A stretch of 64,000 nucleotides of DNA from positions 749,501 through 813,500 of the forward strand of contig NZ_CP118108.1 in the NCBI RefSeq assembly GCF_028747985.1. Reading direction: 5' to 3'. Source of the DNA: Paenibacillus urinalis. GTDB taxonomy: Bacteria; Bacillota; Bacilli; Paenibacillales; Paenibacillaceae. This document shows positions 6,992 to 49,118 of this stretch, in pieces (position 1 is the stretch's first letter; every line of letters begins with the position of its first letter). The notes beneath the pieces were generated by a model. It was not told the origin of the DNA. It saw only the letters and a program-made list of their open reading frames with translations, and did no database searches. Made by a program: the position numbers and the translations under genes.

Positions 6992-7028
6992 GAGTGATAA
7001 AAATTTTAGTGTGGGGGGATTGCTTCGA

Positions 7029-10000
7029 ATGAGAACATCATTTAAGCAGGCCGTTTCTGGGTTACTTGCAGCGGCTCTGCTTCTTCCGGTCGGCTTGTTT
7101 ACTCCAGCAGTTAATGCGGCGGATCTAGCGGCATCTGATTCACCAATTGTATATCAAGAAACATTCCAGAATGGTCAAGGCAAGGCAACTCAATCAGGCG
7201 GTGCCCAGCTGGAAGCTGTAACAGGCAAGCCGTTTGACGGCAATGAGGACGGAGCAGTTCTGAAAGTTAGTAACCGATCCAATAACTGGGATGGCGTGGA
7301 CCTTGCGTTCGGTGACCTTGGCTTGGAGGTTGGCGAAGAATATACGGTAACTGCTTCCGTCTATGTGGATGCTGATTCTAACCCACCGGCGGCGGGGCAG
7401 GCTGTCCTGGAGGTTGTAACCAATAAGGGCATGGATGGAGAAGGATACACAGGGATTTATTCTTCCGACTTTAAGGCAGGGCAAGGCATTACATTATCTG
7501 CCGATCTCTCTGTAGCCAATGTGGACAATACAGCACTTCGAATTAAATCGGATGAAGCCGGTAAGGAAGTATCTTTCTATATCGGGAATATCACAATTAC
7601 CCAAGAAGAAACACCTGCCGAGCCTACGGTAGTCCTGAACCAAAGCTTTGAAGATGGAAATACAGGAGGATGGAACAAGCTCTCCTGGGGCTCGAACGGA
7701 GATACTGCGGTCGTAGATGACGTAGCTTCCGAAGGTACGAAATCTTTGAAGTTCTTTAACCGAGCCGATGAGAAGGCTGTTCCTGCTCTCGTACTTACGG
7801 ACAAGATGAAATCCGACCGTAAGTATGACATATCCCTTAAGGTTAGACTCGGTTCAGGAGAAGGTCAGTTCCATCTGGCTTCCAAGATGGATTCTGAAAT
7901 CTTAGCGGATGATGAGAAATATCCTTGGCTTATCGGCAACAAGCTTGTAACCGCTTCCGATTGGACGCTGCTTGAAACCAAAGGCTATGAAGTTCCTTCT
8001 AGAACAAATGAGGTCATCATCTATGTTGAACCCTCCAGCAATACTTTAACCTCGGATATTTACATTGATGAAGTCATCATTACGGATGTGACTCCGGGTC
8101 AAACTGCACCTGAGATTGTAGATGAGACAGGTATCTCCGCTGACTTTGAGAATGGTTTGGATGGATTCAAAGCACGGAACGGCCGTGAAACGGTAGTTCT
8201 CTCTCAGGATGATAACCATACACCTGACGGCAAGCAAAGCCTGCTTGTTACGACGACGACACAATATGACGCAGCCTTAGTTGATGCGGCTGGCAAAATG
8301 GCAAAGAATCACGAATACGAGCTGTCTGCTTGGGTGAAAATGGCCCCTGGTGAGGAACCCACAACACTTCGGATCAGTGTTCAATATGCGGACAGCGGCT
8401 ATGCGAATGTATCACAAAATGCAATCGTTACTGATCAAGAATGGGTACACTTAACTGGTAAGTATACGCTCACTACGACTCCAAGCGTACTCAATGCTTA
8501 TATCGAAACTGCAAACGACGACGGCGGCAACCGGACCTTCTTTTTAGATGACTTTTCTCTAAAATATTTGGGACCTGTAGCTGCTGCACCTCCAATTCAA
8601 GAGAATCTCCCTAACCTCAAAGATACTTACGCAGATGAATTCCTGATAGGTAACATAGTTAATCCTGCTACCTTCGACGAGACTCGGCTCAAGCTTCTGA
8701 CGAAGCATTACAATGTCGTCACATTCGAGAATGATATGAAGCCGGATTATGCCTATGATACAAACAGAGCATTCGATTTCACCGCAGAAGATGCGCTTGT
8801 CAAGCGAGTACAAGATGCAGGCCTTGATATCCATGGTCATGTGCTTGTATGGCATGCACAGTCACCTACATGGCTGCATACGGCAGCGGATGGTGAGCCG
8901 TTAAGTCGTGAAGAGGCGCTAACGAATCTAAGAACACATGTGAAGACGGTCGTTGAGCATTTTGGGGACCAAGTGATTTCCTGGGACGTTGTCAACGAAG
9001 CGATGAACGATAACCCTGCGAATCCAACCGACTGGAAGAATGCATTACGTAATTCCGGCTGGCTTCAAGCCATCGGCCCTGACTTTATTGAGGAGGCATT
9101 CCTTGCGGCCAAAGAAGTCATCGACGAAAATGGTTGGGATATCAAGCTGTACTACAATGACTACAATGATGACAACCAGAATAAATCTACCGCGATCTAC
9201 AGCATGGTTAAAGAGCTGAATGAGAAGTACGCGGCAGATCACCCGGGCGAGAAACTGATTGATGGCATCGGCATGCAAGCCCACTACAATTTGGGTACTC
9301 GGATCGACAATGTCAGAATGTCACTTGAGCGTTTCAGTTCTTTGGGTGTAGAAGTTAGTGTCACTGAGCTGGACATTATGGCAGGCACCAACTCAGTCAT
9401 GACTGAAAGCGAAGAGAAACAGCAGGCCTATTTGTATGCTCAATTGATGGATCTCTACAAGAAGAACAGTGAGCATATTCCACGTGTTACCTTCTGGGGA
9501 TTGAATGACAGTACGAGCTGGAGAGCTGAGCAGAATCCAACCTTGTTCGACAAGGATTTTCAAGCCAAAGAGGCTTACTACGCAGTAAATGATCCTGAAA
9601 AGTACTTGGCGGACAATGCACCGGAAGAGATTGAATACAAGAAATCAAGCGCTTCCTATGGAACACCAGTGATTGATGGTTCCATGGACAGCGTATGGAG
9701 CAACGCTCCAGAATTGAAGCTGGATACCAAGCAAATGGCATGGTCAGGTGCTACGGGAACAGCCAAAGCACTCTGGGATGACGAAAATCTATACGTCTTG
9801 GTACAAATCAAAGACGATCAACTGAACAAGTCGAACCCGAATGTATGGGAGCAGGACTCTGTAGAAATATTCGTCGATGAGAATAACGGGAAAACAGCGA
9901 GCTACCAAGAGGATGATGGACAATACAGAGTGAACTTCGAGAACTTAGCCTCCTTTAATCCTGCGGAGATCGCTGAAGGTTTTGAATCCGAAGTCTCTGT

Positions 10001-27253: not shown

Positions 27254-30200
27254 ATGTTTAGTTTGAACCAAATGAAGCGATGGACAGCCGTATGTATGAC
27301 AGCCGTATTGGTTGTGACAGGCACGGCTGGAGGAGCGGTGCCATGGCTTGGCGTACAGTCAGCATATGCTGAAGCCCTTGCTGAGACCTCAGGCGAAGTA
27401 CCTGCCGAGACTCCTGCTGATGTTCCAGGCGAAGCACCTGCCGAGACTCCAGCTGAAGCACCTGCCGAGACTCCTGCTGAAGCTCCAGCCGAAACACCTG
27501 CTGAGACTCCAGTTGAAGCTCCAACTGAAGCCGCTGGTGCAGCACCGGTGGTTATTTATGAGCAGCAAGCGGAGTCAACCGTACCTATGGACATGTCGGT
27601 TACATTGTCTGTATATAGTGAAACTGCGATTACTACAGGCACACTATACTATAAGGGTAGTAATGATGAAACATTCGAAGCTGCGCCAATGAACATCGGC
27701 AATCCCGCTCAGGGATACGCGGAATTATCCGGGATTATTCCGGAGTCTGTCATGCACGATGCTGAAATGGTGAATTATTATTTTGAGGTGACAAGCGAGA
27801 ACGGAACAACTCGGAGTCCGGCTGAAGACGGGACGGTATATGAGCTATTGATTGAGCAGCCACCTGCTGGAGAGACGCCGAGTCTTCTGATTACGGAGAT
27901 TGTATTTAATGCTCCGGGCTCTGGAGAGGTATCCGAATATATTGAAGTTTACAATAACAGCCCACAGCGCATTAATTTATCCGACTATTATGTGCATTAC
28001 GAGAATCATGATGGAAGCACGGTTCGGGATTGGACGCTTCCAGATCAGGAAACAGAAGCATGGGAGACGATAGTCTTGCTCAGCAAGAACAGCAGTCTAT
28101 CGCAAGTGAACAGTGACTACGGTGTTTCGCTGGCCGAGCATCAGATTGCAGTCATGACCCAGCCTAGCGGCAACCTGGTGAACACAGGTACGTACACCGC
28201 CTCAATTAAGACGGTTGCAGATAACGAGACCTTATCATCGGTTCGTTACAACGATGCAGCAGTGAACAGCTCGGAGAACGGTGACGATCAGGATAAGACA
28301 AGCGTGGTTTATAAATTTAATACGAACAGCGCTGTGATGGAAAAATGGTTTAGCTTCGGCATCCCGACGCCAGGAACGCTGCTGGATGGTCAAGTGCCGG
28401 ATCCATCAGCAGAGAATCCGTCTCTGCTTCCGGTGATCAGCCATCAATCTGCCGGCACGATGCCTCTGCAGGATGTTGTGATCACCTCTTCCGTACACAG
28501 CCCAACCCCTCTGGAATCGGCTACGCTGTATTTTAAAGACAGCTCAGCAATAACTTATACAGCTGTTGAAATGTCTGTGGACACAGGAGAAGCAGGAAAT
28601 TACAGCCTCTCAGGAACGATTGGACTTACCTCTATTGGCTATTCAGACAGCATAGATTATTACATAACGGCCCGCAATAAAGAAGGGCTGAGCCGCACAG
28701 AGAGATATGGGCTTACTATTGACCGGGAAATTCCGGAGCTGCTGATCACCGAGATCGTGTTTAACGCTCCGAATGATGAATACTCGGAATATATTGAGGT
28801 CTACAACAACAGCACCGAAACGATTAATTTATCAGACTACTATGTATCCTACGAGAACTATAATGGTACAACCGTATATAACTGGACCTTAGGCGATCAG
28901 GAATTGCAGCCATGGAAAACGGTAGTGCTGCTCAGAAAAAATGGCAGCCTCACGCTCGTCAACAGCGAATACGGAGTATCCCTTACCCAGGATCAGATAC
29001 TAATCATGAATCAACCCTCAGGCAATCTAGTCAATACAGGAACCTACACGGCTAACATCAAGAAGACGAGTGATGACCGGATCGTATCATCTGCAAGATA
29101 TAACGATGCTGTCATCGGTCCGAAGGATGTGACAGATAACGGTGACAAGACCAGTGTCGTCTATAAATATCCGGTAAGCGGCGCTCTGATGGACAGGCTG
29201 GCAACCAAGCAGATCCCGACACCGGGAACCATTCTGGAAGGGCAAGTCCCCCTTCCGCAGGTAGATGACCCTGAACAGCTGCCTCACATCAGCTACGAGC
29301 CATCGGTGACGACCACGAATCCTCAGGACGTATCCATTGAAGCTGAGGTGACAAGTGATACGGGTGTGATTGCTGCCAAGCTGTATTACAAGGCAGACTA
29401 TGAGACCTTGTACAGCAGTGCGGAGATGACCATTACAGAGGGCGCCGAAGGGAATTATTCCGTAGCAGGTGTTATTCCGGCTAAGGCGATGGCAAGCGCA
29501 CAGCAAATTCAATATTATTTCACGATTCAAAATGAATATGGTACTTCGCGGAGTCCGTTAGAGGCAGATGCGACTTATGAGCTTCAAGTCGAGCTTGATG
29601 GAGAGCCTCCATATTTGCTGATTACGGAAATGGTGTTCAATGGACCCAATATTAATGGTGCTGACGTCCCTGCATGGGAATATATTGAGCTGTACAACAA
29701 CAGTGATCAAATCATTTCCCTGCAGGATTACTACATTGATTACACAGATCTAAGCGGTGTTACCCAATATACTTGGCAGTTCACTGACAACGTTCAGATG
29801 GAGCCCGGCAGAGCATTGGTGCTGCGGATGGAGCCGACGGATGCGAACGGCACGGCGGACAAATTCAACGCTGCTTACAAGCTGACAGGCGATCAGCAGA
29901 TTGAGGAAGCAGACCTCGTTAATCTCAGAGGGGACAGCAGCCTTGCGAATACATCTTCAAGAATGGTTAACGTTGTAACCAAATCAGGACAGAAGGTTGT
30001 ATCCGCGGCTTATAACGACAATGCAACTCCAGATAATCCAGCGCCTGATAATTTGACGGATACCTCGGTTACGTACTTACCGAATTATGTAAGCGAGGAT
30101 ATGGTTAAATGGGGCGTAAAAGTAACCCCCACACCAGGCTATGTACTGGATGAACAGAAGCCTTCAACAACGGTTACACTCCCGGATGATTATCTGCCTC

Positions 30201-33200
30201 CAGTTATTGAACACACTCGCGGGGCAGGCAGTATCGGGATGGAGGACTATACAATCTCCGCTCAAATCACGGATAATACCGTCGTATCAGAAGCGAAGCT
30301 CTATTATAAGACAGATGTGATGTCAGGCTTCACTTCTGTGGCGATGACTCAGCAAACAGGAAATTCATACGAAGCTGTTGTTTCGGCAGAAGTACTGACA
30401 GGCGCAAGCCGTCTATACTATTATTTCGAAGCATCGGACGGAGTTCATATTACTGTGAAAAAGGATGTGAAGAACGAGCCTTTCGAAATCAAAGTGCTCG
30501 AGTCCATATCCTCAGTAGTTCCAGAGCTGCTAATTACAGAGCTCGTGCCAGACAGTACGGGAAGCGATATGTATGAGTACATTGAGGTGTACAACAATTC
30601 AACGCAAACTGTGAATTTGAAAGATTACCAGGTTGTTTATGTCTATTATCATGGCGGAACGGATGCTTGGGATTTGCCGCATAACCTGGAGCTTCCGGCC
30701 GGAGAAACGGCTGTCATCTGGGTACAGTCTGATCTAAGCAAGGACGAGCCGGTCAGCAGCTTTAACGGCCACTGGGGCGTCAACCTGCCAGAGGATCGGG
30801 TCATGTCGATCTACTCCATCGGTATGAACAATACGAATGAAGGCCGGATCATTCTTGCCGAGGATTCGCATTATGTCGTCGACCATGCCCGCAATCCAAT
30901 CGTGCAAGCCTGGTTCAACGTCGGTGTTGATGAGGTAGAGAACGACGGTACGAGTGTCGTATATGAATATCCTAAGGACGGTTCTACCAAAATGGTGAAG
31001 CGTTCTGCACGCATGACAGCTACACCAGGCCAGCTTATTGAGGCACAGGTGCCTGAACAGCTTGTCGAAGTAGCGGATGATACGAACCAGCCGGTCATCA
31101 TTCATGAAGAGCAAGTAGAAGATACGCCTTTTGGCTCGCTGACATTTGAAGCAACGGTGACCGATGATCAAATGGCAAAACGGGTATCCTTGTTCTTCAA
31201 ACGGGATATGGATACGGATTACACTGAAGTCAATATGAAGCGCACAGCGGAAGGCTCGGATGTATTCATGTCCGCTGAAGTGAACAAGGCACTGCTGCTT
31301 GGCGCAGCGCATGTTGATTATTACTTTGAAGCAACGGATGGACAGAATATCGTCCAATCTGACAACTACAGCCTCGGTTTTGTGAATTATGGACCGTTGT
31401 GGATTGATTTTGCAAATGTCGAATTTTTAAGTGGAACAGCTGTTGTTCAGGGCAATACGGAAGCTGCAGGCGAGACGTTGACCCTCTCGGTCGATGGAAA
31501 TGAGCTCATCACTAGTCCGGCGATGCATACAGCGCCAACACTAACCTATCGGGTTGACGATATAAACAGCGGCTTCCAGAATGGTTTATTCATCAATGAT
31601 GAGCTGGTTACGCTATTGCCAGTGAGTACTTACTATCAGCAAAAGTATGTTGATATTCCGAAGCACGTTCTGCAGCCAGGAGAAAATACGATCAAAATTA
31701 CGGCCGGAACGAAAGAGAGCCCGCTGGAGTTCGGTACATCGAACAACAACGATGACTATCGAATTGAAGGAGTGGAGCTGCTGCTGCCAGACGGCACTTC
31801 AGCCGATTGGACTTCAGCACGTGCCAAGACATTAAATGCAGATAGCTTTACCGATATCGATCCGGCTGACCGCCACAAGATTGGTGATAGCGGTGGATAT
31901 GTCGAATATATCGAGATTACATTTAACATACCGGCAGATGTATTCCACAGCATCTACGCGGAGGTAGACACAACAGCACTAACGGATGGAGATCATCTAT
32001 TTACATTGTCCTCAGGTTCGGGTAACTCTGCTGAGGTAACCGCTGTTGTTGACAATACCGCGCCTGTATTTGAGAGCTTCTCTATTGAAGACGGCGAGCT
32101 GTATACTGGTGAATTTGAGCTGAATGCGGTTATTGAGGATGCTGTATCTGGTGTCGCTTCGGTTAAGGCTACGCTTGATGGATCAGCAGTAGAGTTGCCA
32201 ACGATGGTTCAGGCTTCAGAACTCATTGTGGGCGAGCATATCTTTGAAGTAGTGGCAACGGATGCGGCAGGAAATACGGTAACTCGTAAAGGTGTGTTTA
32301 CTACGGATGAAACGGCACCGAACGCTCCTGAGGATCCGACTCCAGCAGATGGTGCAGCAGGAGTGAGCCGTGATGCAGTGCTCAGCGTAACTGCAAGTGA
32401 TCCGAATGGAGATACAGTGGACGTGTCCTTTGGTCAAGGCTATCGTTATGATTACAACGAGCAGTCGGATATTGAAGCCTATTCCAATGCCGTTGACCGT
32501 GAGCCGCCAATTGAACTGAATCCAGAAGGTGAGGAAGGATTTACAGCGGAAGCAGAAGCGCTCGTTGCGAAGCAGGACGGGGAATATTACGTTACAGATG
32601 CGAGTGGCCTGTTCCCTTACCAGCGCTATGAATTCAAGCTGGACGAAGATGCAAGTGGAATTGAATCCGTTGAAGTCGTGTGGCAGGGACACTCGGTTGA
32701 AGGCCGTCAGGTGACCATGTATACGTGGAACTATAACACGGGCAAATGGGAAGCTGCAGCCAGAGGCGTAGGTGCCGAAGACTTCGAACTGAGTGCTGCC
32801 GTAAACGCTGCAGACATGGTAAGAGACGAGACGATTCAAGTGCTTATTCAGGACTTAATTGTAGCTGAAGATGCCTCCACTTCCGAAGATCCGGACGGTG
32901 ATGGCAAATTCACCTTTGCCTTCTCTACAGATACGCAGTACTACGCAGATTCCTATCCGGATATTTTCCGGTCACAGATGCAGTATATCGCTGATATGAA
33001 GGAAAAGATGGATATCCGTTATCTCATTCATACCGGGGATATTGTGGACGACTGGTATCGACCGGACGAATGGGCGATAGCCGATGAGAGCTTTAAGATT
33101 ATTGAGGAAGCCGGTCTTCCATATGGTGTCGTTGCAGGGAATCATGATGTCAACTTCAATGCTGCCGATTATACGGAGTACTGGAAATATTTTGGACGTG

Positions 33201-35170
33201 ATCGGTTTGAGAGTCAGCCGACTTACGGAGACGATTTGAACAACAACCGCGATCACTATGATCTTGTATCTGCCAACGGTCAGGATTTCATCATTTTGTA
33301 TCTGGGCTGGAGCATCCAGGAGGATACAGTGGAGTGGGCAAATGAAGTGCTGAAGAAATATCCGGACCGCTACGCTATTATCGGAACGCATGAATATATT
33401 TCTCCTTCCGGGGCGTACTCCGGTCAAGGTCAAATGATCTGGGATGAAATTGTAGCGAAGAATCCGAATGTGAAAATGGTCCTCTGCGGTCATATTCATG
33501 GCGTAGGTTATAACGTCAAGCATTTGGAAGACGGGCGCGTTGTCGTAGAAATGCTGGCCGATTATCAATCCGGACCTATGGGTGGTTCAGGATACATGCG
33601 ATTCCTGGAATTCGATCCAGCGGAAGAACAAATTCATGTAAAGACATACTCACCTTATCTCGATGACTGGAATTATTTTGAGGACGGTTCCGACGATTTC
33701 TACATTCCTTTTGAGACACAGGATCCTCTCAAGCGAGTAGCAACGGATTATATCGGAGTGAATCTCTATAGCACTAACGAGATCGGGGCACAGCAAGCCG
33801 TAGAAAGTGGAAGCAGGGCGAGCACGACCTGGTCTTCACTAGACGCGAATCAGAATTATTTCTGGTATGCCAAAGCAACGGATCCATCCGGCAGCTCGAC
33901 ACTCTCGCCAATCTGGAAATTCTCCACGGGCAGCGGTGGAAATGGCAATGGAGACGGTGACGGTGATGGCAATGGAAACGGAAATGGTAATGGTAACGGC
34001 AATGGCGATGGCAATGGTAACGGTAATGGAAATGGTAATAATAACAACGGCTCTGGTGGTGATACATCGACGGACAGAGGGTGGACCGAAATTACGCCGG
34101 AAGATATCTCAGCAGATGGTGACAGTGTAAGCCTGAGAGCAGAGGACGATACGACAGGCTTGATCTTAACCTCAGCAGCGCTTACCCGTATTGGAAACCG
34201 GAGCTTGACGATTACGCTTGCAGACGGTGCCGTGATCACCTTGAGTGCAGAAGAACGAGCTGCATTGGCTGGTGAGCTCGGTGCGAATGAACAACTGTAT
34301 GTTTCTACTGAATCAGCTTCGGAAGAGGCTGTCGACGGAGCAGTCCGAGATTACAGCAGGGAACAAAAAGCAAGCTTTAAGGTGGTCGGCCATCCAGCTA
34401 AGGTGGAGATTGGCAAACGCGGTGTGAATGGCACAGCGGAGCCGCTGGATGCTTCGGTAACGATTAAGCTTACGGCCGATAACGTGAAGAATACTGCTCT
34501 GTCCGGTATTTATCAGATTGCGGCAGACGGTACAGTAACATGGGTTGGCGGAAGTTATGCAGACGGAAGCTATACAGCATCAGTAGAAGAGGCGGGTACG
34601 TATGTCGTACTGGAATTTAACAAGCTCTATACTGACGTCACCGAGGGACATTGGGCTTACCCTTATGTACAACTGCTCAGCTTCCAAGGTATCGCGAACG
34701 GCATTAACGACACCACATTTGGCGCTGCAAAATCGACTACAAGAGCCGAATTCGTAACGCTGCTGGCAAGAGCATTTGGTCTTACAGCATCCACAGGCTC
34801 GGATACCTTCAGCGATGTTAAGGCTGGAAGCTGGTATGCAGAAGCTGTACAAGCAGCTTATGAGGCGGGCATTGTTTATGGCACAAGTGCAGACCAATTC
34901 GAACCAGGCAATTCGATCAGCCGGGAAGAAATGGTTGTCATGATTGTGCGTGCCCTGGAGCATATGAGCGGCAAGGAGCTCGAGACCGGAAACGGAACGG
35001 CCTATTCCGATGACAATCAGATCAGCGATTGGGCCAAGGAAGCGGTCAAGAAGGCAACGGCATTGGGATTCATTGCAGGTAAAGGAAACAACAGCTTTGA
35101 TCCTAAAGGCATGGCATTGCGTTCTGAGACAGCGAAGGTTCTCGCTCTGATGCTGGAGCAAATGCAATAA
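27254..35170 (+). CDS. Giant surface protein: lamin-tail domains, calcineurin-like phosphoesterase, SLH anchor
   Basis: This is a 2638-residue exported protein. A signal peptide (cleavage near AYA, residue 39) is followed by an Ala/Glu/Thr/Pro repeat region (43-97). Then five Ig-like modules alternate with four lamin-tail domains, which begin near 209, 495, 788 and 1090 and carry LLITEIVFN and EYIEVYNNS. Further beta domains follow (Big-like, about 1580-1700). The metallophosphatase (about 1886-2146) shows DTQYY, GDIVDD, GNHD, GTHEY and GHIHG; the usual first DxH is DTQ. After an Fn3-like segment come a Gly/Asn/Asp tract, an unassigned domain and three SLH repeats (about 2458-2638). It is probably a wall-bound phosphodiesterase or nuclease; the substrate is unknown. 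TTG 27263 or ATG 27272 may be the true start, since spacing to GAGGGA fits them better. Confidence 0.9.
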   Translation: MFSLNQMKRWTAVCMTAVLVVTGTAGGAVPWLGVQSAYAEALAETSGEVPAETPADVPGEAPAETPAEAPAETPAEAPAETPAETPVEAPTEAAGAAPVVIYEQQAESTVPMDMSVTLSVYSETAITTGTLYYKGSNDETFEAAPMNIGNPAQGYAELSGIIPESVMHDAEMVNYYFEVTSENGTTRSPAEDGTVYELLIEQPPAGETPSLLITEIVFNAPGSGEVSEYIEVYNNSPQRINLSDYYVHYENHDGSTVRDWTLPDQETEAWETIVLLSKNSSLSQVNSDYGVSLAEHQIAVMTQPSGNLVNTGTYTASIKTVADNETLSSVRYNDAAVNSSENGDDQDKTSVVYKFNTNSAVMEKWFSFGIPTPGTLLDGQVPDPSAENPSLLPVISHQSAGTMPLQDVVITSSVHSPTPLESATLYFKDSSAITYTAVEMSVDTGEAGNYSLSGTIGLTSIGYSDSIDYYITARNKEGLSRTERYGLTIDREIPELLITEIVFNAPNDEYSEYIEVYNNSTETINLSDYYVSYENYNGTTVYNWTLGDQELQPWKTVVLLRKNGSLTLVNSEYGVSLTQDQILIMNQPSGNLVNTGTYTANIKKTSDDRIVSSARYNDAVIGPKDVTDNGDKTSVVYKYPVSGALMDRLATKQIPTPGTILEGQVPLPQVDDPEQLPHISYEPSVTTTNPQDVSIEAEVTSDTGVIAAKLYYKADYETLYSSAEMTITEGAEGNYSVAGVIPAKAMASAQQIQYYFTIQNEYGTSRSPLEADATYELQVELDGEPPYLLITEMVFNGPNINGADVPAWEYIELYNNSDQIISLQDYYIDYTDLSGVTQYTWQFTDNVQMEPGRALVLRMEPTDANGTADKFNAAYKLTGDQQIEEADLVNLRGDSSLANTSSRMVNVVTKSGQKVVSAAYNDNATPDNPAPDNLTDTSVTYLPNYVSEDMVKWGVKVTPTPGYVLDEQKPSTTVTLPDDYLPPVIEHTRGAGSIGMEDYTISAQITDNTVVSEAKLYYKTDVMSGFTSVAMTQQTGNSYEAVVSAEVLTGASRLYYYFEASDGVHITVKKDVKNEPFEIKVLESISSVVPELLITELVPDSTGSDMYEYIEVYNNSTQTVNLKDYQVVYVYYHGGTDAWDLPHNLELPAGETAVIWVQSDLSKDEPVSSFNGHWGVNLPEDRVMSIYSIGMNNTNEGRIILAEDSHYVVDHARNPIVQAWFNVGVDEVENDGTSVVYEYPKDGSTKMVKRSARMTATPGQLIEAQVPEQLVEVADDTNQPVIIHEEQVEDTPFGSLTFEATVTDDQMAKRVSLFFKRDMDTDYTEVNMKRTAEGSDVFMSAEVNKALLLGAAHVDYYFEATDGQNIVQSDNYSLGFVNYGPLWIDFANVEFLSGTAVVQGNTEAAGETLTLSVDGNELITSPAMHTAPTLTYRVDDINSGFQNGLFINDELVTLLPVSTYYQQKYVDIPKHVLQPGENTIKITAGTKESPLEFGTSNNNDDYRIEGVELLLPDGTSADWTSARAKTLNADSFTDIDPADRHKIGDSGGYVEYIEITFNIPADVFHSIYAEVDTTALTDGDHLFTLSSGSGNSAEVTAVVDNTAPVFESFSIEDGELYTGEFELNAVIEDAVSGVASVKATLDGSAVELPTMVQASELIVGEHIFEVVATDAAGNTVTRKGVFTTDETAPNAPEDPTPADGAAGVSRDAVLSVTASDPNGDTVDVSFGQGYRYDYNEQSDIEAYSNAVDREPPIELNPEGEEGFTAEAEALVAKQDGEYYVTDASGLFPYQRYEFKLDEDASGIESVEVVWQGHSVEGRQVTMYTWNYNTGKWEAAARGVGAEDFELSAAVNAADMVRDETIQVLIQDLIVAEDASTSEDPDGDGKFTFAFSTDTQYYADSYPDIFRSQMQYIADMKEKMDIRYLIHTGDIVDDWYRPDEWAIADESFKIIEEAGLPYGVVAGNHDVNFNAADYTEYWKYFGRDRFESQPTYGDDLNNNRDHYDLVSANGQDFIILYLGWSIQEDTVEWANEVLKKYPDRYAIIGTHEYISPSGAYSGQGQMIWDEIVAKNPNVKMVLCGHIHGVGYNVKHLEDGRVVVEMLADYQSGPMGGSGYMRFLEFDPAEEQIHVKTYSPYLDDWNYFEDGSDDFYIPFETQDPLKRVATDYIGVNLYSTNEIGAQQAVESGSRASTTWSSLDANQNYFWYAKATDPSGSSTLSPIWKFSTGSGGNGNGDGDGDGNGNGNGNGNGNGDGNGNGNGNGNNNNGSGGDTSTDRGWTEITPEDISADGDSVSLRAEDDTTGLILTSAALTRIGNRSLTITLADGAVITLSAEERAALAGELGANEQLYVSTESASEEAVDGAVRDYSREQKASFKVVGHPAKVEIGKRGVNGTAEPLDASVTIKLTADNVKNTALSGIYQIAADGTVTWVGGSYADGSYTASVEEAGTYVVLEFNKLYTDVTEGHWAYPYVQLLSFQGIANGINDTTFGAAKSTTRAEFVTLLARAFGLTASTGSDTFSDVKAGSWYAEAVQAAYEAGIVYGTSADQFEPGNSISREEMVVMIVRALEHMSGKELETGNGTAYSDDNQISDWAKEAVKKATALGFIAGKGNNSFDPKGMALRSETAKVLALMLEQMQ
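27390..27537 (+). repeat. Tandem Ala-Pro-Ala-Glu-Thr-Pro coding repeat
   Basis: Imperfect copies of an 18-24 bp unit encode PAETPAEA-type hexapeptides just after the signal peptide of the giant protein. It is a flexible spacer, likely variable in copy number. Confidence 0.85.
33934..34062 (+). repeat. Gly-Asn/Gly-Asp coding tract
   Basis: About 129 bases of GGNAAY/GGNGAY dipeptide codons encode a glycine-rich linker of about 40 residues between the phosphoesterase part and the SLH part. It is prone to slippage. Confidence 0.85.
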
Positions 35171-40894: not shown

Positions 40895-41282
40895 CTCTAG
40901 TCCTCCCTGTTGTCCATCCATTGAGATCAGAATATGCCTACTGTATAGAACGAACATCATCGCAATATTAAAATAAAGGACTAATTATATTAATATTAAA
41001 ATGTTAATATATTACAGGTGACAAAAATAATGATGAATCGGCTGTTTTTATGTCCAAAAATCGCAAAATTGTTAATATATTGTGCGTGTTTTTGCTTTAT
41101 AATAGTTCTGAAGTAGTGACATTTTTTAGAAAATTGTTAATCCAATATGCTTAGTTAGCAAGTGAGCTTGGGTCTTCAAGTCTGGTTAATAGAAGAATAG
41201 AATTTCATGGAAATGTAAGTGGGTCATTGTATTTTATGCATGCTAGAGAAGCGTGTCGAATAATGAAAAGGAGCATAGCAAG
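40895..41282. other. 388-base AT-rich intergenic region upstream of the exopolysaccharide operon
   Basis: No gene is seen in this stretch. It holds a TATAAT at 41098-41103 without a well-spaced -35, and long runs of TTAATAT-type sequence. I looked for a c-di-GMP-I riboswitch and for S-box, T-box and cre sites and did not find one. Confidence 0.6.
41065..41141 (+). repeat. Two 12-bp direct repeats flanking a -10-like element
   Basis: AAAATTGTTAAT occurs at 41065-41076 and 41130-41141, on either side of TATAAT at 41098, with a similar AAAATGTTAAT further upstream near 40998. It is a candidate regulator-binding region for the exopolysaccharide operon. Confidence 0.55.
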
Positions 41283-42752
41283 ATGCCAAGCACAGCTACA
41301 TATTACAGGCAGGCCGGACTGATCATTCTGTCTCTGCTGGTTCTGCTGACAGGATGCAGCACTGCGAAGAAGGACACAATCACGAACGATCCAAATGTAA
41401 ATCCGGATCCTGTCGTGCAGCGTTATGAAGGAGAGAAGAGTCAGGAGATTCCCTATGTATATACAGGACGCAGAGAGCTCTCACTGACCTTTAACGGAAT
41501 GGGTGACAAGGAGACGATGGATCGCCTGCTGGATGAGCTGGACAAGTACAAGATTAAGGCTACTTTTTTCCTGCCCGGCATGAGGGTCGCAGAGGAGCCG
41601 GATATTGCTCAGGCGATTGTGGACAGGGGACATGAAATTGAGAATAATCTGCTGAATCAGCTAGATATCACCGATATGAATTACAACGATATCTATCAGG
41701 AGGTTAAGCTCGCGAATGAGGTGATTAAGGAGCATACGGGTGCTGAGCCCGTTTACGTCCGTACCAGATCCGGAGATATTCCTGAAGATCTCGCCCTGGC
41801 TGCAGCTCATCTGGGGATGAAGGCAGTGGTCAGCTACAGCATTAATCCGAAGGATCGGGATATGAAGAGCGCAGAGGAGATTGGTGAATATGTAGAGCGT
41901 TATATTCATCGGGGCGGGATTATTACTTTAAATACCGATATCAATCCTGAGATTGTTGAATCGATTAAGTATATTGCGGCAGCCGCGGAGGATATCGGCT
42001 ATAAGTTAATTCCACTTAGAGAACTGGCAGAGAATGGCGGAGTCCGTAAGCCGCTTGAGGAAATACCCGGCTATGATGCAGCTAAGATCAATCCGGATTA
42101 TGAGAACGCCGAATACGAGCTGATATATAAGGTCAAGACCGACAAGAAGCAGGTGGCTCTGACACTGGATGACTGGGCCACCGATAAGACAGTAACCCAA
42201 TTTCTTGATATCCTGGCCGAGAAAAAAGTACATGCTACCTTTTTTCTGCGAGCCAGAGGCGTAGTAGATAATCCCAATCTGGCTCGTGCAATCATTGAAG
42301 AGGGACATGATGTTGCGAATCATACGTATACGCATCCGGTTGTTACCTCGCTGACAGCAGAGGAATTGCAGGAGGAAATTGTGAAAGCTCATGAGGTGTT
42401 GACGGAGGCAATCCAACAGCAGCCGCTGATGCTCTTCCGTCCGCCTACGGGAGCGATCGATGCTCAGAGTGCCAAGGTGATTGCTGCGACAGGATATGAG
42501 CACATTGCGATGTACGATGTGACAGCAATGGATTGGGACGTATCCCATTCTGCAGACGACATTGTGAATATGGTTATGGACCAAACGGAAAATGGCAGCA
42601 TTATTCTGCTTCACATCCTGGATGGTATTCACTCTGTTGAAGCTCTTCCAAGGATTATTGATCAGCTGCGAGCCAAAGGGTATACATTTGTCAGCTTGGT
42701 AGATTTAATGGAACAGAACAAAACATGGATAAACAGTGATGAGGTAAAATAA
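41283..42752 (+). CDS. Lipoprotein with two NodB polysaccharide deacetylase domains, first one degenerate
   Basis: This 489-residue exported lipoprotein has lipobox LLTGC with C25. Domain 1 (about 65-245) has the deacetylase fold (KATFFLPGMRV, GHEIENN) but its metal motifs are lost: TFDD is TFNG and the HxxxH histidines are replaced (NNLLNQ). Domain 2 (about 290-480) is intact, with D296-D297 in TLDDW, H347 and H351 in NHTYTH, RPPTG and ILLHI, so it can remove acetyl groups from a polysaccharide at the cell surface. ATG 41283 follows AAAAGGAG; an upstream GTG at 41253 is unlikely. The stop overlaps the next start by one base (TAATG), indicating translational coupling with the sugar dehydrogenase. 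First gene of the exopolysaccharide operon. Confidence 0.88.
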   Translation: MPSTATYYRQAGLIILSLLVLLTGCSTAKKDTITNDPNVNPDPVVQRYEGEKSQEIPYVYTGRRELSLTFNGMGDKETMDRLLDELDKYKIKATFFLPGMRVAEEPDIAQAIVDRGHEIENNLLNQLDITDMNYNDIYQEVKLANEVIKEHTGAEPVYVRTRSGDIPEDLALAAAHLGMKAVVSYSINPKDRDMKSAEEIGEYVERYIHRGGIITLNTDINPEIVESIKYIAAAAEDIGYKLIPLRELAENGGVRKPLEEIPGYDAAKINPDYENAEYELIYKVKTDKKQVALTLDDWATDKTVTQFLDILAEKKVHATFFLRARGVVDNPNLARAIIEEGHDVANHTYTHPVVTSLTAEELQEEIVKAHEVLTEAIQQQPLMLFRPPTGAIDAQSAKVIAATGYEHIAMYDVTAMDWDVSHSADDIVNMVMDQTENGSIILLHILDGIHSVEALPRIIDQLRAKGYTFVSLVDLMEQNKTWINSDEVK

Positions 42753-44115
42753 TGGGATTGTTTGAGGAACTGGCTGCTGGGAACGAGAAGCTCGCAGTGA
42801 TTGGACTTGGTTATGTCGGGCTGCCTATTGCGGCTGCTTTTGCCAGAAAGTTGAATGTTATTGGATTTGATGTGAATCGTCAAAAAATAAAAGCCTATCA
42901 GGATGGAATCGACCTGACTGGTGATATCGGGGATGAAGCTGTACGGCATTGCGGCGTAGACTTTACGTCAGATAGGGACCAGCTTGCTGGGGTACGCTGC
43001 TATATTGTTGCCGTACCAACACCCGTCAAGAGCGGGAACGTTCCTGATCTGGAGGCAGTACAGAAGGCGAGCCGGCTTGTAGCCGAGCGGCTGACACCAG
43101 GCTCGCTCGTAGTCTATGAATCTACGGTATATCCCGGCGTAACGGAAGAGGTATGCATACCTATTCTCGAGGAAGTTTCGGGACTTACGTGCGGAAGGGA
43201 TTTTAAGGTGGGGTATTCACCGGAGCGGATTAATCCGGGAGACCAAGTCCACCGGCTGGAGAATATTGTGAAGATTGTATCTGGCAATGATGAGGAGGCG
43301 CTGGAGACCGTCGCCAGCCTATATGAGCTGATCGTCGAGGCCGGGGTTCACCGTGCCGAGAGCATCAAGGTAGCCGAGGCAGCTAAGGTCATCGAGAATG
43401 CACAGCGGGATATTAATATTGCCTTCATGAATGAGCTGTCCATGCTGTTTCATGAGATGGATATCGATACGAATGCCGTTCTCAGAGCTGCAGGGACCAA
43501 GTGGAATTTCCTTCCGTTCCGTCCGGGTCTGGTCGGCGGCCATTGTATCAGTATAGACCCTTATTATTTGACTTACAAAGCGGAGGACAGCGGTTATCAT
43601 TCGCGAATTATTTTGGCTGGACGGCAGATTAACGACGGTATGGGCAAGTACATCGCCCAGAATATCATCAAGATGATGGTGAAGCAGCAGATGGATTTGA
43701 GAAATACGCGCATCGGCATTTTCGGACTTGCTTTCAAAGAGAATTGCAGTGATATCCGCGCATCGGCATTTTCGGACTTGCTTTCAAAGAGAATTGCAGT
43801 GATATCCGCAATTCCAAGGTGATGGATATTCTGAATGAGCTAAGCGAATATGGGATTACCCCATTGGTAGCCGATCCTTATGTCGATGCGGCTACTGCCT
43901 ATCAGGAATACGGCGTGGAGCTTTCCGATCCTGCGCATCTAGTAGATTTAAACATCGCAGTGGTAGCTGTAGCCCACGAATCTTTTAGAGCAATGAGCTT
44001 CAACCAGGTGCAGCAGCTATATAGCCATACACAGCCGAAGATTATGTTTGATATCAAGGGGATATATGACAGACACATGTATGAGCAGAGCGGATTTCTC
44101 TACTGGAGCTTGTAG
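42752..44115 (+). pseudogene. TviB-like UDP-aminosugar 6-dehydrogenase, frameshifted by a 50-bp duplication
   Basis: The enzyme would oxidise a UDP-N-acetylhexosamine twice at C6, giving a UDP-N-acetylhexosaminuronic acid for polymer synthesis. Visible are the NAD motif GLGYVGLP, YESTVYPGVTEEVC, GYSPERINPGD, the lysine/asparagine segment AKVIENAQRDINIA, and the catalytic cysteine in GGHCISIDPYYL. The pattern is that of TviB/WbpO-type enzymes. At 43708 a 50-bp tandem duplication shifts the frame, so the first frame ends at 43822 (356 residues) and the C-terminal nucleotide-binding part (MMDILNELSEYGITPLVADP to LYWSL) is read in another frame at 43819-44115. Without one copy a continuous protein of about 437 residues results. 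The start overlaps the upstream stop. Confidence 0.9.
43708..43807 (+). repeat. Perfect 50-bp tandem duplication inside the sugar dehydrogenase gene
   Basis: Bases 43708-43757 (starting GCGCATCGGC, ending GTGATATCC) are repeated exactly at 43758-43807. Fifty is not a multiple of three, so the gene is frameshifted. Flanking bases add two to three more matching positions. Confidence 0.97.
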
Positions 44116-44136
44116 TCCACAGATAGGAGCTTCGAT

Positions 44137-46026
44137 ATGATAAGTAGAAAAGACAAAATCAAAGAGGAAAAAGAAAAGCTGACAAGAGAAAAGCTGACCA
44201 AGACCCGTCCAGACAGGCGGAAGCTGTCCTATGTGCCAGACCCCGAGAAGGTTCGGGGCTCAACAGATCGGCGCGGTATTGCGGCGGCTGAGGGAACGGA
44301 AGGAATAGATGTTGATTACATTAATCGGCTGCGTAAGCTCAGTCTGCGTTATTTGGCAGAATTTGAAGTGAACGTTACACCAAAAGGCCGAAAGAGCAGG
44401 CATGCACTTAGAGGCAAGTCAATCGATATTTCTTCGACCGGACTGTTAATGGAGCTGTACCATCCGAAGCATCATTTACAGGTTGGGAGCCGAGTGAATG
44501 CCAGATTCAAGATCCCGCCGGGGGCTATGCCGGAGGGATTCGAATCGTCAGTCAATATGGATGCGAAGGTGGTCCGTATTGTCACACAGGAGCAAACCGA
44601 GGATTCAGAAGGCAGTGTGCAGATCGCCCTTGATTTTGAGAAGCCGCTGACCTCTTATCTTCAGAAAAAGCGCTGGGGATATTCTGTCTATTCTGCCAGT
44701 GCCATCCTCCTATTCGCGGTGCTGCTGATTATGCTGATGCGAGCAGAGAGTATCATTTATTTCAAATATAATGTAGTTCTTTACTTATATAGTCTGATTG
44801 CGGCAGCCTTCTTGCTGACCCGGTACTTGTTCGGCGCGATGTACAGGGATGTCAAGGTGGATCCGCTGTATACGCCGGGTGTGTCTATTATTATCCCATG
44901 CTTCAATGAAGAGGAATGGATTCATCGAACGATCCTTAGCTGTATCAATCAGGATTACCCGGTGAACAAGCTGGAGGTCATTGTAGTCGATGACCGCTCC
45001 ACAGATCGGTCAGTAGAGCGCATCCAGGAGACCATTGAAATGATCCATCAAGAGGCGGAACGGTATGGGACCGCAGAGAGACTCTCTTATGTTGTGCTTG
45101 AAGAGAATGGGGGCAAGCGGGAAGCTCTGGTTAGAGGGGTAAAGATGGCGAAGCATAACCTTGTCGTCTTTGTTGACTCGGACAGCTTTCTTGAGCCAAC
45201 GGCTATTCGCCATCTGGTGCAGCCCTTCCAGGATCCGAAGATGGGCGGCGTTGCTGGTCGAACGGACGTGGAGAATACGTATACGAACACGATCACCAAG
45301 CTGCAGACCGTTCGCTATTTTATCGCTTTTCGTATTATGAAAGCAGCGGAATCCTGGTTCGACAGTGTAACCTGCTTGTCCGGTCCGTTGTCCTGCTATC
45401 GCAAGGAACTGGTGCTTCAGCACGCGGATGCTTGGCTGAATCAGAAGTTCCTGGGGCAGCCTGCGACCTTCGGCGACGATCGAAGTATGACGAACTACAT
45501 TCTAAAAACCCACCGGACAGGTTATCAGGATACGGCCATATGCTCCACGATTGTTCCATCTAAAATGGATGTCTTCCTGAAGCAGCAGATGCGGTGGAAG
45601 CGCTCGTGGCTGCGTGAGTCCTTGCGTGCAGGAACCTTTATATGGCGCAAAGAACCGTTCATGGCATTATTCTTTTATATTGGAGTCATTGTTCCCATTG
45701 CCGCGCCTGTTATCGTTCTCTATAACCTCGTCTATGTGCCGGTTGTTCATCATGTCTTTCCTTTTACCTTCCTGATGGGACTGTTCATGATGGCACTGCT
45801 GATGAGTCTTGCACACCTCTTGTTCAGGAAGAGCAAGCTGTGGGTGTTCGGATTTGTGTTCTGCGTATTTTATGAATTCATTCTCTTGTGGCAGATGCCT
45901 GTGGCCTGGTTTACCTTCTGGAAGTCCACTTGGGGTACGCGGGAGACACCACAGGACATTGAGGCAAGGAAGAAGAAGGAAGAGCGCAAGAACAAACGAA
46001 AAATGAAAAAAGGATGGCAGGCCTAA
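44137..46026 (+). CDS. PilZ-domain processive family 2 glycosyltransferase (exopolysaccharide synthase)
   Basis: This 629-residue membrane synthase probably polymerises and exports a polysaccharide, with activity controlled by c-di-GMP. A lysine-rich N-terminus is followed by a PilZ domain (about 70-170) with DISSTG near residue 97; the upstream RxxxR motif reads KLSLR. Two TM helices follow (about 180-240). The GT2 domain shows D285 (VDDRS), D347/D349 (VDSDS), D447/D448 (GDDRS) and Q483-W487 (QQMRW), the full set of cellulose/hyaluronan-synthase-like enzymes. Further TM helices lie at about 505-590, then a basic tail. It follows the dehydrogenase gene by 21 bases and runs directly into the next gene (TAAATG). 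The sugar donor is inferred from the TviB-like neighbour. Confidence 0.92.
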   Translation: MISRKDKIKEEKEKLTREKLTKTRPDRRKLSYVPDPEKVRGSTDRRGIAAAEGTEGIDVDYINRLRKLSLRYLAEFEVNVTPKGRKSRHALRGKSIDISSTGLLMELYHPKHHLQVGSRVNARFKIPPGAMPEGFESSVNMDAKVVRIVTQEQTEDSEGSVQIALDFEKPLTSYLQKKRWGYSVYSASAILLFAVLLIMLMRAESIIYFKYNVVLYLYSLIAAAFLLTRYLFGAMYRDVKVDPLYTPGVSIIIPCFNEEEWIHRTILSCINQDYPVNKLEVIVVDDRSTDRSVERIQETIEMIHQEAERYGTAERLSYVVLEENGGKREALVRGVKMAKHNLVVFVDSDSFLEPTAIRHLVQPFQDPKMGGVAGRTDVENTYTNTITKLQTVRYFIAFRIMKAAESWFDSVTCLSGPLSCYRKELVLQHADAWLNQKFLGQPATFGDDRSMTNYILKTHRTGYQDTAICSTIVPSKMDVFLKQQMRWKRSWLRESLRAGTFIWRKEPFMALFFYIGVIVPIAAPVIVLYNLVYVPVVHHVFPFTFLMGLFMMALLMSLAHLLFRKSKLWVFGFVFCVFYEFILLWQMPVAWFTFWKSTWGTRETPQDIEARKKKEERKNKRKMKKGWQA

Positions 46027-47793
46027 ATGATCAATAAGCATAAGACTGCCGCTATGGATGTTCACCAGAAGAATGCACGGAAGCTGCGCAAGTCGATTAT
46101 CCAGTTCATTGTTCTAATTCTATTAGCCCTATTGCTCATAAAAACGTTGTTTAATATCGATAAGTACGAGGAGCCTGACCGGGCTGCGTGGACGGGAACG
46201 GACGGTTTTATAGCGATATCCTACTTTGGTGTCGGACGGGCAGGTACAGCCAAGCTTGTGGATAAGGATCAGCTGAAGGATCAGCTGGAGGCACTGTATG
46301 ATCAGGGGTACGTAACGATATCGCAGCAGGACATCCTTGATTATTACCATGAAGGGAAGCCTCTGCCGGAGAAGGCACTGTTTCTGTCCTTCGAAGATGG
46401 TCGGAACGATTCCAGCTTATTCGCTCAGCCTCTGCTAGAGAGGTTTAATTACAAGGCAACGTTTCTCTCTTATGCCAACAAGATCGGCAACAGCGAACGG
46501 AAGTTTGTGCAGCCGAAGGAAATGCTGAAGATGACGAAGACGGGATATTGGGAGCTGGGGTCGAATGGCTATCGGCTGAGTTATATTAACGTATTTGATG
46601 AGGAAGGCCGGTTCATCGGAGAGAAGGATGAGAGCGAGCTGCCTGATAAATCAGATATCGAGTACTACAATCATTACTTAATGGATTTTATAAGGGACAA
46701 GAATATGATCCCTGCTGAAGACCGAACGCAGATGGAAGCCAGAATTAAGACCGATTATGATCTGATGAAAAATATATATACGGATTCACTTGGTTATGTT
46801 CCCGGCGTATATATGATCATGCACGCCAATGCGCTGGGAAACGGGATGAACAGGCTGGTGACGAATGCCAATGAGCAGCAGATCAGAGAGCTGTTCAACC
46901 TTCACTTTAATCGGGAGGGCAATGCACTGAATACTCAGGCCGATCAAGTGTATAATCTAAGCCGGGTTCAGCCCGCCCCCTATTGGTCAACCAATCATCT
47001 GCTGATGAAGATCGTGCAGGATTCGGGTCAGGCTCTGGAGTTCGTCCAAGGAGATGAGCGCGAAGCAGAGAAGTGGCGTCTAATAACAGGGGCAGCTGAG
47101 TTTAAAGAAGGCGAGATCATTCTCACATCACCCGCCGGGGGGATGGGAAGACTTGCGCTGTTTGATTCTACAGGCTCAAACGACATTTCAATGCGCTTCG
47201 AAGCTGCAGGCAATGTAGTGGGTCGTCAGGGAGTGTATTTAAGAAACGATGAAGAGAAGGGGAGCTACCTGCGGGTCGATCTTGTAAATAACAGTCTGCG
47301 AGTCGTACAGAAGACAGCCGGTCACGAGGAAGAAACCATCTATGAAGAGAAGCTGGATCCGGTGATCTGGTCCCATGAAGACCTGGCGTATGATAAAGCC
47401 TCTGTGTATACCAAGGAGCAGACAACGGCGGGAGATCGGGATGCAGATGAGGAATATCCGATTAATATTGCGGATCAACGTCTAATTCAGATATCGCTGC
47501 AGAAGGACAAGCTTAGCGTTACTGTAGATGATGCAGAATGGATTAAGCAGCTGCCTGTTGATCCTTCCATAGATGAAGGTAAGCTTATGCTCTATGCTGC
47601 TTATCACAAGCAGAACAAGAAGGACACGATCTATGACGGGATCTTTAAAGAGGTTGAAGTATATGTAAGTGAACCGGATGCTGAGGAACCTTCCAAGCTG
47701 TACAGCAATATTCCAACGGGCTGGGAGAGAGTATCCTATTCGGTAAGGAATGCTTTCAATTCAGCCATTGATTGGGCAGTCGAAACATTTTGA
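46027..47793 (+). CDS. Membrane-anchored NodB-like protein with C-terminal lectin-like domain, altered metal site
   Basis: This 588-residue protein has one N-terminal TM helix (about 22-43) and an outside-facing body. Residues about 60-330 have the PgaB/IcaB-like deacetylase fold (GYVTISQQDILDYY, KATFLSYAN). The metal motif reads LSFEDG (E123, D124) in place of TFDDG, and the expected His-x3-His region is ELGSNGYRLSY without histidines, so catalysis by the usual zinc route is doubtful. Residues about 350-555 form a concanavalin/LamG-like beta-sandwich (SMRFEAAGNVVGRQGVYLRN) that may bind the polymer. It may act in export or modification of the exopolysaccharide. The start codon directly follows the stop of the synthase, which argues for co-translation. 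Confidence 0.82.
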   Translation: MINKHKTAAMDVHQKNARKLRKSIIQFIVLILLALLLIKTLFNIDKYEEPDRAAWTGTDGFIAISYFGVGRAGTAKLVDKDQLKDQLEALYDQGYVTISQQDILDYYHEGKPLPEKALFLSFEDGRNDSSLFAQPLLERFNYKATFLSYANKIGNSERKFVQPKEMLKMTKTGYWELGSNGYRLSYINVFDEEGRFIGEKDESELPDKSDIEYYNHYLMDFIRDKNMIPAEDRTQMEARIKTDYDLMKNIYTDSLGYVPGVYMIMHANALGNGMNRLVTNANEQQIRELFNLHFNREGNALNTQADQVYNLSRVQPAPYWSTNHLLMKIVQDSGQALEFVQGDEREAEKWRLITGAAEFKEGEIILTSPAGGMGRLALFDSTGSNDISMRFEAAGNVVGRQGVYLRNDEEKGSYLRVDLVNNSLRVVQKTAGHEEETIYEEKLDPVIWSHEDLAYDKASVYTKEQTTAGDRDADEEYPINIADQRLIQISLQKDKLSVTVDDAEWIKQLPVDPSIDEGKLMLYAAYHKQNKKDTIYDGIFKEVEVYVSEPDAEEPSKLYSNIPTGWERVSYSVRNAFNSAIDWAVETF

Positions 47794-47837
47794 TGAGCTG
47801 GGATCAATCATGACGAGTTATAGAATGGAGATACGAT

Positions 47838-48977
47838 GTGGTTAGGACAAGCTATGGAAAGCGCGGGAAACGTGGAAATCGTGGGCGACGTGGACGGTAT
47901 GGGAAGCCGGCATTTGTATTTGTTGTCCTCCTGGTGATCGGTTTACTCACTGTCCTGCTGTTCTTCCTGCTGCAGAACAAGAATGCTCAGGCTCCAGTTA
48001 AAGCTCCTGGGCAGGCCTCAGAGCTGCCAGCCCAGGATCTGTCTGTCTGGATTACCGACTGGCAGTGGGAAGCGGGCATTGAGGATTGGTCTGCCCTGCA
48101 CAAGGGGACCGTTGATGTACAGCTGTTTGCAGCTTATTTTGATGAGCGGGATGAGCTGTATTTTACAGAGACGATGTCGAATGCTCTTCCCCGGCTGCAT
48201 GAGCTGACGGGTGTGGAAGCAGATTCTGATGCACGAATTGGACTGACGCTGGTCAATGATATCATTCATGACGATGGAAGTGCGGTCCAGAAGGACCCTG
48301 AGCTGCTGACACGACTTACCGCAACGAACGAATCGCGAGCACGACATATGGAGAGCATTACGAATATCGTAGAGCGATATGGCCTGGATCAAATCGAGAT
48401 TGATTACGAGCAGATAAAAGATCAGGATTGGCCGAATATGATCCGGTTTTATGAGGAGCTGGCTCTTGAGCTTGACGAGATGAATGTGTCTCTGCGTATT
48501 GTACTTGAACCCAAGGCACCTATTGAGGAGCTGAAGCTGCCTGAGGGACCGGAGTATGTTATGATGGCCTACAATTTGTATGGAGGGCACAGCGGACCAG
48601 GTTCGAAAGCAGATATGGTATTTATTAAGGAGCTTGCTGCGAGGATGAGTCATCTACCAGGTGATCCCATCATGGCTTTCTCGGCGGGTGGATTTGATTG
48701 GTCCGAAGGCAGCAGCACGGTCTCTCTTACGGAGAAGGCAGCTGCTGATTTGCTGGATAGATATGAGATCACTCCTGAACGAGATACGAAGAGCGGCAGC
48801 TTGTATTTTAATTACACGGATGAGGATGGAGCACCCCATACGGTGTGGTACGCCGATCACGAGACACTCCAAGGCTGGATGGAGGCAGCAAGTCGTGAGG
48901 GAATTCATAAGTATGCTATATGGCGGCTTGGTGAGCTGGGAGAAGATACTCGGGATTTGCTGCGTGAGGTAGAGTGA
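47838..48977 (+). CDS. Membrane-anchored GH18-like glycosidase
   Basis: This 379-residue protein has a strongly basic N-terminus, one TM helix (about 26-46) and an extracellular TIM-barrel-like domain. The segment LDQIEIDYEQI (D184-E191) corresponds to the GH18 DxxDxDxE motif, with E191 as predicted acid/base, D189 present, and E187 in place of the first inner Asp. YVMMAYNLYGGHSGPGSKAD and IMAFSAGGFDW match later barrel strands, and YAIWRLGELGED resembles the closing strand. It probably cuts a beta-linked aminosugar polymer, perhaps trimming or releasing the exopolysaccharide. The start is GTG 47838, 8 bases after GGAG; a nearby ATG is in another frame. It is the last gene of the operon, 44 bases after its neighbour. 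Confidence 0.82.
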   Translation: MVRTSYGKRGKRGNRGRRGRYGKPAFVFVVLLVIGLLTVLLFFLLQNKNAQAPVKAPGQASELPAQDLSVWITDWQWEAGIEDWSALHKGTVDVQLFAAYFDERDELYFTETMSNALPRLHELTGVEADSDARIGLTLVNDIIHDDGSAVQKDPELLTRLTATNESRARHMESITNIVERYGLDQIEIDYEQIKDQDWPNMIRFYEELALELDEMNVSLRIVLEPKAPIEELKLPEGPEYVMMAYNLYGGHSGPGSKADMVFIKELAARMSHLPGDPIMAFSAGGFDWSEGSSTVSLTEKAAADLLDRYEITPERDTKSGSLYFNYTDEDGAPHTVWYADHETLQGWMEAASREGIHKYAIWRLGELGEDTRDLLREVE

Positions 48978-49046: not shown

Positions 49047-49118
49047 GAGGAAGTGAATGAGGGTGCGGTGGCGGAGCCTTCTTTGCTTCTTCTTTTTTTT
49101 GCCTGCCAGTACCTATAT

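Follow-up and report, generated by a model that had tools for sequence, protein, structure and literature searches.

The 64,000-nucleotide stretch of the Paenibacillus urinalis chromosome record analysed here (the window; contig NZ_CP118108.1, positions 749,501 to 813,500) contains, at 41283–48977, five forward-strand genes with short gaps or overlaps between them, which form a conserved operon of exopolysaccharide type. They encode a lipoprotein with two NodB domains (nodB2), a UDP-N-acetyl-hexosamine dehydrogenase, a processive GT2 synthase with an N-terminal PilZ domain (gt2), a membrane protein of NodB-like fold (nodBL) and a GH18-family hydrolase (gh18). The operon is a variant of the synthase-dependent exopolysaccharide systems, and although its synthase is widespread, no description of it was found among the papers listed by the literature searches (titles and the beginnings of abstracts, outside preprints and most subscription papers). 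On balance we lean, if only slightly, towards the view that a hyaluronan-type synthase gated by its PilZ domain makes a polymer containing an N-acetyl-hexosaminuronic acid, which is deacetylated and trimmed outside the cell – a polymer whose precursor enzyme is interrupted in this particular strain.

A five-gene unit around a hyaluronan-synthase-like enzyme

The layout proposed in the original prediction, made from the sequence alone, is borne out by open reading frames and Pfam matches. Gene 1 carries two NodB stretches (PF01522), gene 2 belongs to the UDPG/MGDP dehydrogenases, gene 3 combines PilZ (25.2 bits, cut-off 22.5) with GT2, gene 4 contains NodB (23.6 bits, cut-off 23.1) and gene 5 is, as predicted, GH18-like (PF00704, 37.7 bits, cut-off 29.6). 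That prediction had also named beforehand the finding that would count against it, namely neighbours not conserved together in relatives. Among the best 80 of the 283 related loci found (L066–L145) – a top-ranked set that leans to close kin – the synthase has nodBL nearby in all 80, nodB2 in 77, gh18 in 75 and a dehydrogenase in 73, while the next commonest neighbour family appears in 13, and the gene order is exactly that of the window in 50. Some of the gaps are contig ends (nodB2 of L089, gh18 of L111), and in L117 the GH18 gene was found about 5 kb further on. Over the match, neither stops nor second frames disturb the open reading frame of nodB2 in 67 of 77 loci, of gt2 in 78 of 80, of gh18 in 74 of 75 and of nodBL in 80 of 80, the remaining cases among the first three including two second gene copies.

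The same five genes recur in Paenibacillus, Cohnella, Brevibacillus, Lysinibacillus, Kurthia and clostridial metagenome-assembled genomes, far in excess of chance; the operon is conserved as a unit and passes the test that the prediction had set for itself. Within the nearest genus, though, just 3 of the 75 genomes have the synthase (matches in the other 72 are no better than 1e-19); in the wider samples it is present in 70 of the 394 family genomes (E ≤1e-60) and in 26 of 398 of the class (E ≤1e-200), as well as in the clostridial metagenome-assembled genomes. Two of the records deserve a remark of their own. The operon of Paenibacillus cellulositrophicus (L092) lies on a 0.9 Mb record titled plasmid (unnamed1), and the record of L077 is named Neobacillus mesonae MER 107, a name that looks wrong, its genome (G049) grouping with the genus of Paenibacillus sp. 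TCA20 (G001).

The synthase itself (44137–46026, forward strand) is closest to the hyaluronan synthases (HAS), both by sequence profile and by Foldseek comparison of its predicted model. It shares with HAS alignments the stretches SGPL, GDDR.LTN, QQ.RW and WGT, and it has the hallmarks of a class I HAS: a single processive GT2 enzyme with HAS-type stretches and membrane helices. The predicted combination of PilZ and GT2 with a QQMRW motif holds, both domains being found by Pfam and QQMRW being kept in all 79 aligned relatives (motif counts refer to clustered open reading frames: 79 rows for the synthase, 78 for nodBL and 74 each for nodB2 and gh18). The further suggestion that synthesis would be pga/bcs-like fares badly: the model of PgaC/IcaA (TIGR03937), the synthase of poly-beta-1,6-N-acetyl-D-glucosamine (PNAG), gives 120 bits against a cut-off of 422.3, CelA gives 33 against 699, and PilZ precedes GT2, unlike in BcsA.

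The dehydrogenase, its link to the synthase and its interruption

The strongest competing account of the product is an uncharged homopolymer of N-acetylglucosamine (GlcNAc), similar to chitin, chitosan or PNAG, with the dehydrogenase a passenger or the supplier of another pathway. The synthase does score 196 bits with the NodC model, besides the 120 with PgaC; known members of the NodB and GH18 families work on polymers of GlcNAc; and seven of the 80 loci have no local dehydrogenase. Against such a homopolymer stand the kinship with hyaluronan synthases, the wide distance from the PgaC and CelA cut-offs and the persistence of the dehydrogenase, which is found alongside the synthase in 73 of the 80 loci, at three positions (first in 12, last in 4, second in the window's order) and as two subfamilies. 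In 11 of the 12 dehydrogenase-first loci – ten named Lysinibacillus and one Metasolibacillus – the enzyme belongs to another subfamily, at 34–37% identity. Moreover, of the seven genomes without a local gene six carry a copy of 53–60% identity elsewhere, L107 having only a 31% match. In the class sample, a dehydrogenase at E ≤1e-120 is present in 23 of the 26 synthase-positive genomes (E ≤1e-200, with 8 weaker matches of 28–34% identity counted as negative) versus 63 of the 372 others, a difference whose significance in Fisher's test is inflated by kinship among the 26. The dehydrogenase belongs to the synthase system, the link being kept across positions, subfamily replacement and relocation within the genome; we regard the homopolymer as unlikely, if still the most serious of the alternative products.

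In the window, the dehydrogenase gene (42752–43822, forward strand, delineated by profiles and the list of open reading frames) is frameshifted and ends after 356 codons, with its C-terminal UDP-binding domain in a different frame at 43819–44115 (forward strand; PF03720, 43.1 bits, cut-off 30). The frame is broken by a perfect tandem duplication at 43707–43809, with a period of 50, an identical run of 53 bp and CGC at either end of the unit; it is the longest perfect tandem duplication (periods 6–599) of the 64-kb window. The original prediction of a TviB-like enzyme, upheld by profile as regards the N-acetyl-hexosamine type, had missed this break. The nearest genome, that of TCA20 (locus L066), has a single copy of the unit and a gene otherwise identical at 951 of 955 and 359 of 359 positions; intact copies are present in G001, G033 and G049, and no such duplication was found in L001–L003. 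Indeed, the frame is open in all 73 loci with a local copy, and the sole truncated protein among the 120 best matches listed is the window's own, the other 119 measuring 432–449 residues, albeit in a database clustered at 90% identity that could hide some truncated alleles. When the 80 loci were scanned for perfect tandem repeats (periods 8–299), no similarly long one whose period is not a multiple of three fell within an operon gene; an 8-bp repeat (21 bases) close to the nodBL start of L138 leaves that frame open. In Lysinibacillus xylanilyticus (L137:7036–7115), a 35-bp perfect tandem duplication lies upstream of the operon and may change promoter spacing.

The strain is thus predicted to lack the operon's own uronic-acid precursor enzyme, and its supply of precursor is probably shut off or lowered. 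A more elaborate account would make the break a reversible switch, duplications arising and collapsing to give polymer-on and polymer-off cells. The perfection of the duplication, its 3-bp ends, its rank in the window and the near-identity of the rest of the gene to that of TCA20 suit such phase variation, as does a precedent in pneumococcal capsule genes: Waite et al. (2001 and 2003, both in the reference list of PMC4292784) are said to have described duplication-driven phase variation there, the gene of the earlier report reportedly being a UDP-sugar dehydrogenase. On the other side are the open frames of the relatives and the single truncated allele, and a single event is just as well explained by plain loss, by selection in the laboratory or by an assembly error – the duplication may be a sequencing or assembly fault – so that we give the switch only a minor share of the probability. 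As for other sources of precursor, a second pairing of GT2 and dehydrogenase elsewhere in relatives might serve. One such exopolysaccharide-like locus (L146:4303–8023, G001 C30) combines a GT2 enzyme (134 bits with the PgaC model, below its cut-off) with a dehydrogenase of N-acetyl-hexosamine type, 45% identical to the operon dehydrogenase of L127 and 80% to the second dehydrogenase of L074. Four loci (L071, L074, L081 and L086) have a second dehydrogenase 4–6 kb upstream of the synthase.

Which sugar the enzyme oxidises bears on a further alternative, that the product is ordinary hyaluronan or another glycosaminoglycan containing glucuronic acid (GlcA), made with a dehydrogenase acting on UDP-glucose. 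The HAS-like GT2 and the label 'hyaluronan synthase' on several public records of homologues speak for it. HAS operons have a UDP-glucose dehydrogenase as partner; the operon enzyme, by contrast, is of N-acetyl-hexosamine type as judged by profile: the intact L066 protein scores 454 bits with TviB, 220 with WecC and 106 with TuaD, and passes the cut-off of the broad family TIGR03026 (379 bits against 189.8), albeit not that of the TviB equivalog NF011729 (592). Neither dehydrogenase subfamily passes any of the equivalog cut-offs examined, and the best solved relative of the Lysinibacillus replacement enzyme (L127) is Cap5O, which we take to be a dehydrogenase of UDP-N-acetylmannosamine. Ordinary hyaluronan therefore seems to us rather improbable.

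The PilZ domain, the outer proteins and the flanks

A PilZ match (PF07238, E up to 0.01) is present in all 38 synthase members scanned, and the second half of the binding motif, (D/N)xSxxG, appears as DxSxxG in 79 of 79 rows. The RxxxR half is incomplete: its second arginine (R71) is invariant (79/79) and its first is absent throughout (0/79 and 0/120), an arginine at −5 being found in 48/79 and 117/120. Upstream lies a strongly kept N-terminal extension, with DRRxLSxVPDP in 117 of 120 and [DNE]RR[GSQ] in 120 of 120. Because the loop from this extension to R71 shrinks to a few residues in 4 of 38 aligned members (L111, L115, L116 and L119), the invariant RR pair of the extension may stand in for the missing first arginine. 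The predicted model has low confidence in this part, a profile search for a solved structure of the PilZ part had no hit up to E = 10, and the Foldseek comparison of the whole synthase barely covers the PilZ part. GGDEF genes are present in all 29 genomes chosen from the synthase-positives of the genus, family and class samples, which is permissive only. The earlier claim that cyclic di-GMP (c-di-GMP) turns on the synthase thus goes further than the motif allows: with half of the PilZ binding motif missing, control by c-di-GMP is something we infer, and plausible.

Of the operon's NodB domains, only the second one of nodB2 looks active, to judge from its residues. The gene (41283–42752, forward strand) starts at an ATG at 41283 preceded by AGGAG, both kept in 4 of 4 aligned strains; residues are numbered here from a GTG at 41253. 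The predicted dual-NodB lipoprotein is there, with two PF01522 matches and an LLTGCS lipobox, though the prediction overlooked that domain 1 has lost its metal ligands (N81 in 68 of 74 rows, histidine pair absent). Domain 2 keeps D306, D307, H357, H361, R396 and H454 in 74 of 74 rows, and with them the D-H-H metal site, the arginine of RPP and the final histidine of CE4 enzymes (D307, H357, H361, R396 and H454). In some relatives nodB2 occurs as two or three adjacent gene copies (L070:3619–8528, L083:5782–8617, L085:5439–8591 and L114:5661–8593), and in the clostridial loci L126, L135 and L140 as a single protein in which the NodB stretch occurs three or four times.

The membrane protein nodBL (46027–47793, forward strand) had been cast as a deacetylase, a role that its residues do not support. 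In the predicted model, a PgaB/IcaB-like CE4 fold adjoins a CBM66-like beta-sandwich, followed by a C-terminal helix; D124 is kept in 78 of 78 rows, Asn replaces the first metal histidine in 78 of 78 and 120 of 120, and the lost metal site aligns to SHT of 4u10. With both metal histidines absent, nodBL is by sequence a conserved pseudo-deacetylase, even if homologues are publicly named 'polysaccharide deacetylase' or 'Poly-beta-1,6-N-acetyl-D-glucosamine N-deacetylase precursor'. A run of a 24-bp repeat lies in frame within the nodBL gene of L112 (13243–13465; protein of 669 residues). The hydrolase gh18 (47838–48977, forward strand; PF00704) begins with a hydrophobic stretch, and in place of the family motif DxxDxDxE it reads xxxExDxE (E187, D189 and E191 in 74 of 74), the catalytic Glu being kept and an earlier Asp replaced. 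Among solved structures, the four chains that match it best are those of a cortical-lytic enzyme, YaaH, a probable chitinase and YdhD.

Upstream of the operon, a candidate −10 element, TATAAT, lies at 41098–41103 on the forward strand, where TTTATAATAGTTC is identical in 4 of 4 aligned strains; it is missing from the output of a consensus promoter and terminator scan of the window. No Rfam family reached its gathering score within the window, and hence no known riboswitch family was detected upstream of the operon. A terminator-like stem with a T-rich tail (49070–49087, forward strand), recognised by consensus match, possibly marks the operon's end. A GH2 gene at 49168 was considered as a sixth member and left out because it is matched in only 3 of the 80 loci (L066, L067 and L077). 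Elsewhere in the window are two very long open reading frames, at 27254–35170 (2638 residues, with a signal-peptide-like beginning) and 6990–11489 (1499 residues).

A spore or cell-wall polysaccharide system, engaged in sporulation or cortex remodelling, is the least probable account and very unlikely: nodB2 does exceed the PdaB cut-off (267 versus 237.4 bits) and the solved relatives of gh18 include the cortical-lytic enzyme, YaaH and YdhD, but PdaB and SleL may just be well-known Bacillota members of these folds, the system is in only 70 of 394 family genomes, the kept TATAAT suggests a vegetative promoter, and Kurthia (L139) and Bhargavaea (L143), which are not known to form spores, have the operon too.

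Relation to known systems and proposed mechanism

Set beside known systems, the operon resembles several and coincides with none. It shares with class I HAS the single GT2 enzyme with membrane helices, the sequence stretches and a sugar-nucleotide dehydrogenase partner, and differs in its N-terminal PilZ, the type of its dehydrogenase, the NodB lipoprotein, the pseudo-deacetylase and GH18. Like the PNAG systems (Pga/Ica) it joins a GT2 enzyme, a PgaB/IcaB-fold protein and an extracellular hydrolase, yet the synthase falls below the PgaC cut-off, the PgaB-like protein lacks both metal histidines, the hydrolase is a separate GH18 enzyme, and a uronic precursor enzyme is added. BcsA likewise has PilZ fused to a GT2 synthase; here PilZ is N-terminal and without RxxxR, the synthase is nearer to HAS, and no BcsB was found in the operon. 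With Salmonella Vi it has in common a dehydrogenase nearest to the TviB model, but one below the equivalog cut-off, with no C4-epimerase in the operon and with a processive HAS-like synthase as polymerase. The alginate system (AlgD, Alg8 and Alg44) also unites a sugar-nucleotide dehydrogenase, GT2 and PilZ; unlike there, PilZ is fused to the synthase, the dehydrogenase is of N-acetyl-hexosamine type and the operon has no epimerase. Alg44 carries PilZ, according to PMC8461298. Listeria Pss is a Gram-positive synthase operon linked to c-di-GMP (PMC4125290), whose receptor PssE is a degenerate GGDEF I-site protein; no receptor of that type is present here.

In the mechanism that we favour, the dehydrogenase would form the uronic acid by oxidising a UDP-N-acetyl-hexosamine, for which UDP-GlcNAc is the likeliest candidate, and the membrane synthase would polymerise and export a chain containing that acid; the aminouronic acid would probably alternate with GlcNAc, as GlcA does in hyaluronan, though substrate, linkage and alternation alike are what we infer. 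The N-terminal PilZ domain would act as a gate on the synthase, probably by binding c-di-GMP non-canonically with the RR pair of the extension, with R71 and with DxSxxG. The remaining steps would take place outside the cell, where the second NodB domain of nodB2 would remove part of the acetyl groups, the pseudo-deacetylase and its CBM-like domain would hold or guide the chain, and the GH18 enzyme would cut it. Two findings weigh against this mechanism: the seven loci without a local dehydrogenase and, for its c-di-GMP part, the missing first arginine of RxxxR. A bolder version, which we offer tentatively and think doubtful as a whole, is an 'aminohyaluronan' class in Bacillota: chains in which GlcNAc alternates with an N-acetyl-hexosaminuronic acid, made by a synthase whose PilZ domain senses a cyclic dinucleotide by a new arrangement of arginines, handled by a pseudo-deacetylase and, in this strain, silenced by duplication.

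If the favoured mechanism is correct, some public names, such as 'hyaluronan synthase', 'polysaccharide deacetylase' and PNAG N-deacetylase precursor, may mislead for these proteins. The operon would provide a synthase of hyaluronan type to which a second-messenger domain is fused, a CE4 protein that is conserved but catalytically dead and likely serves to handle the chain and, as the product of the whole system, a new acidic amino-polymer of soil bacteria.

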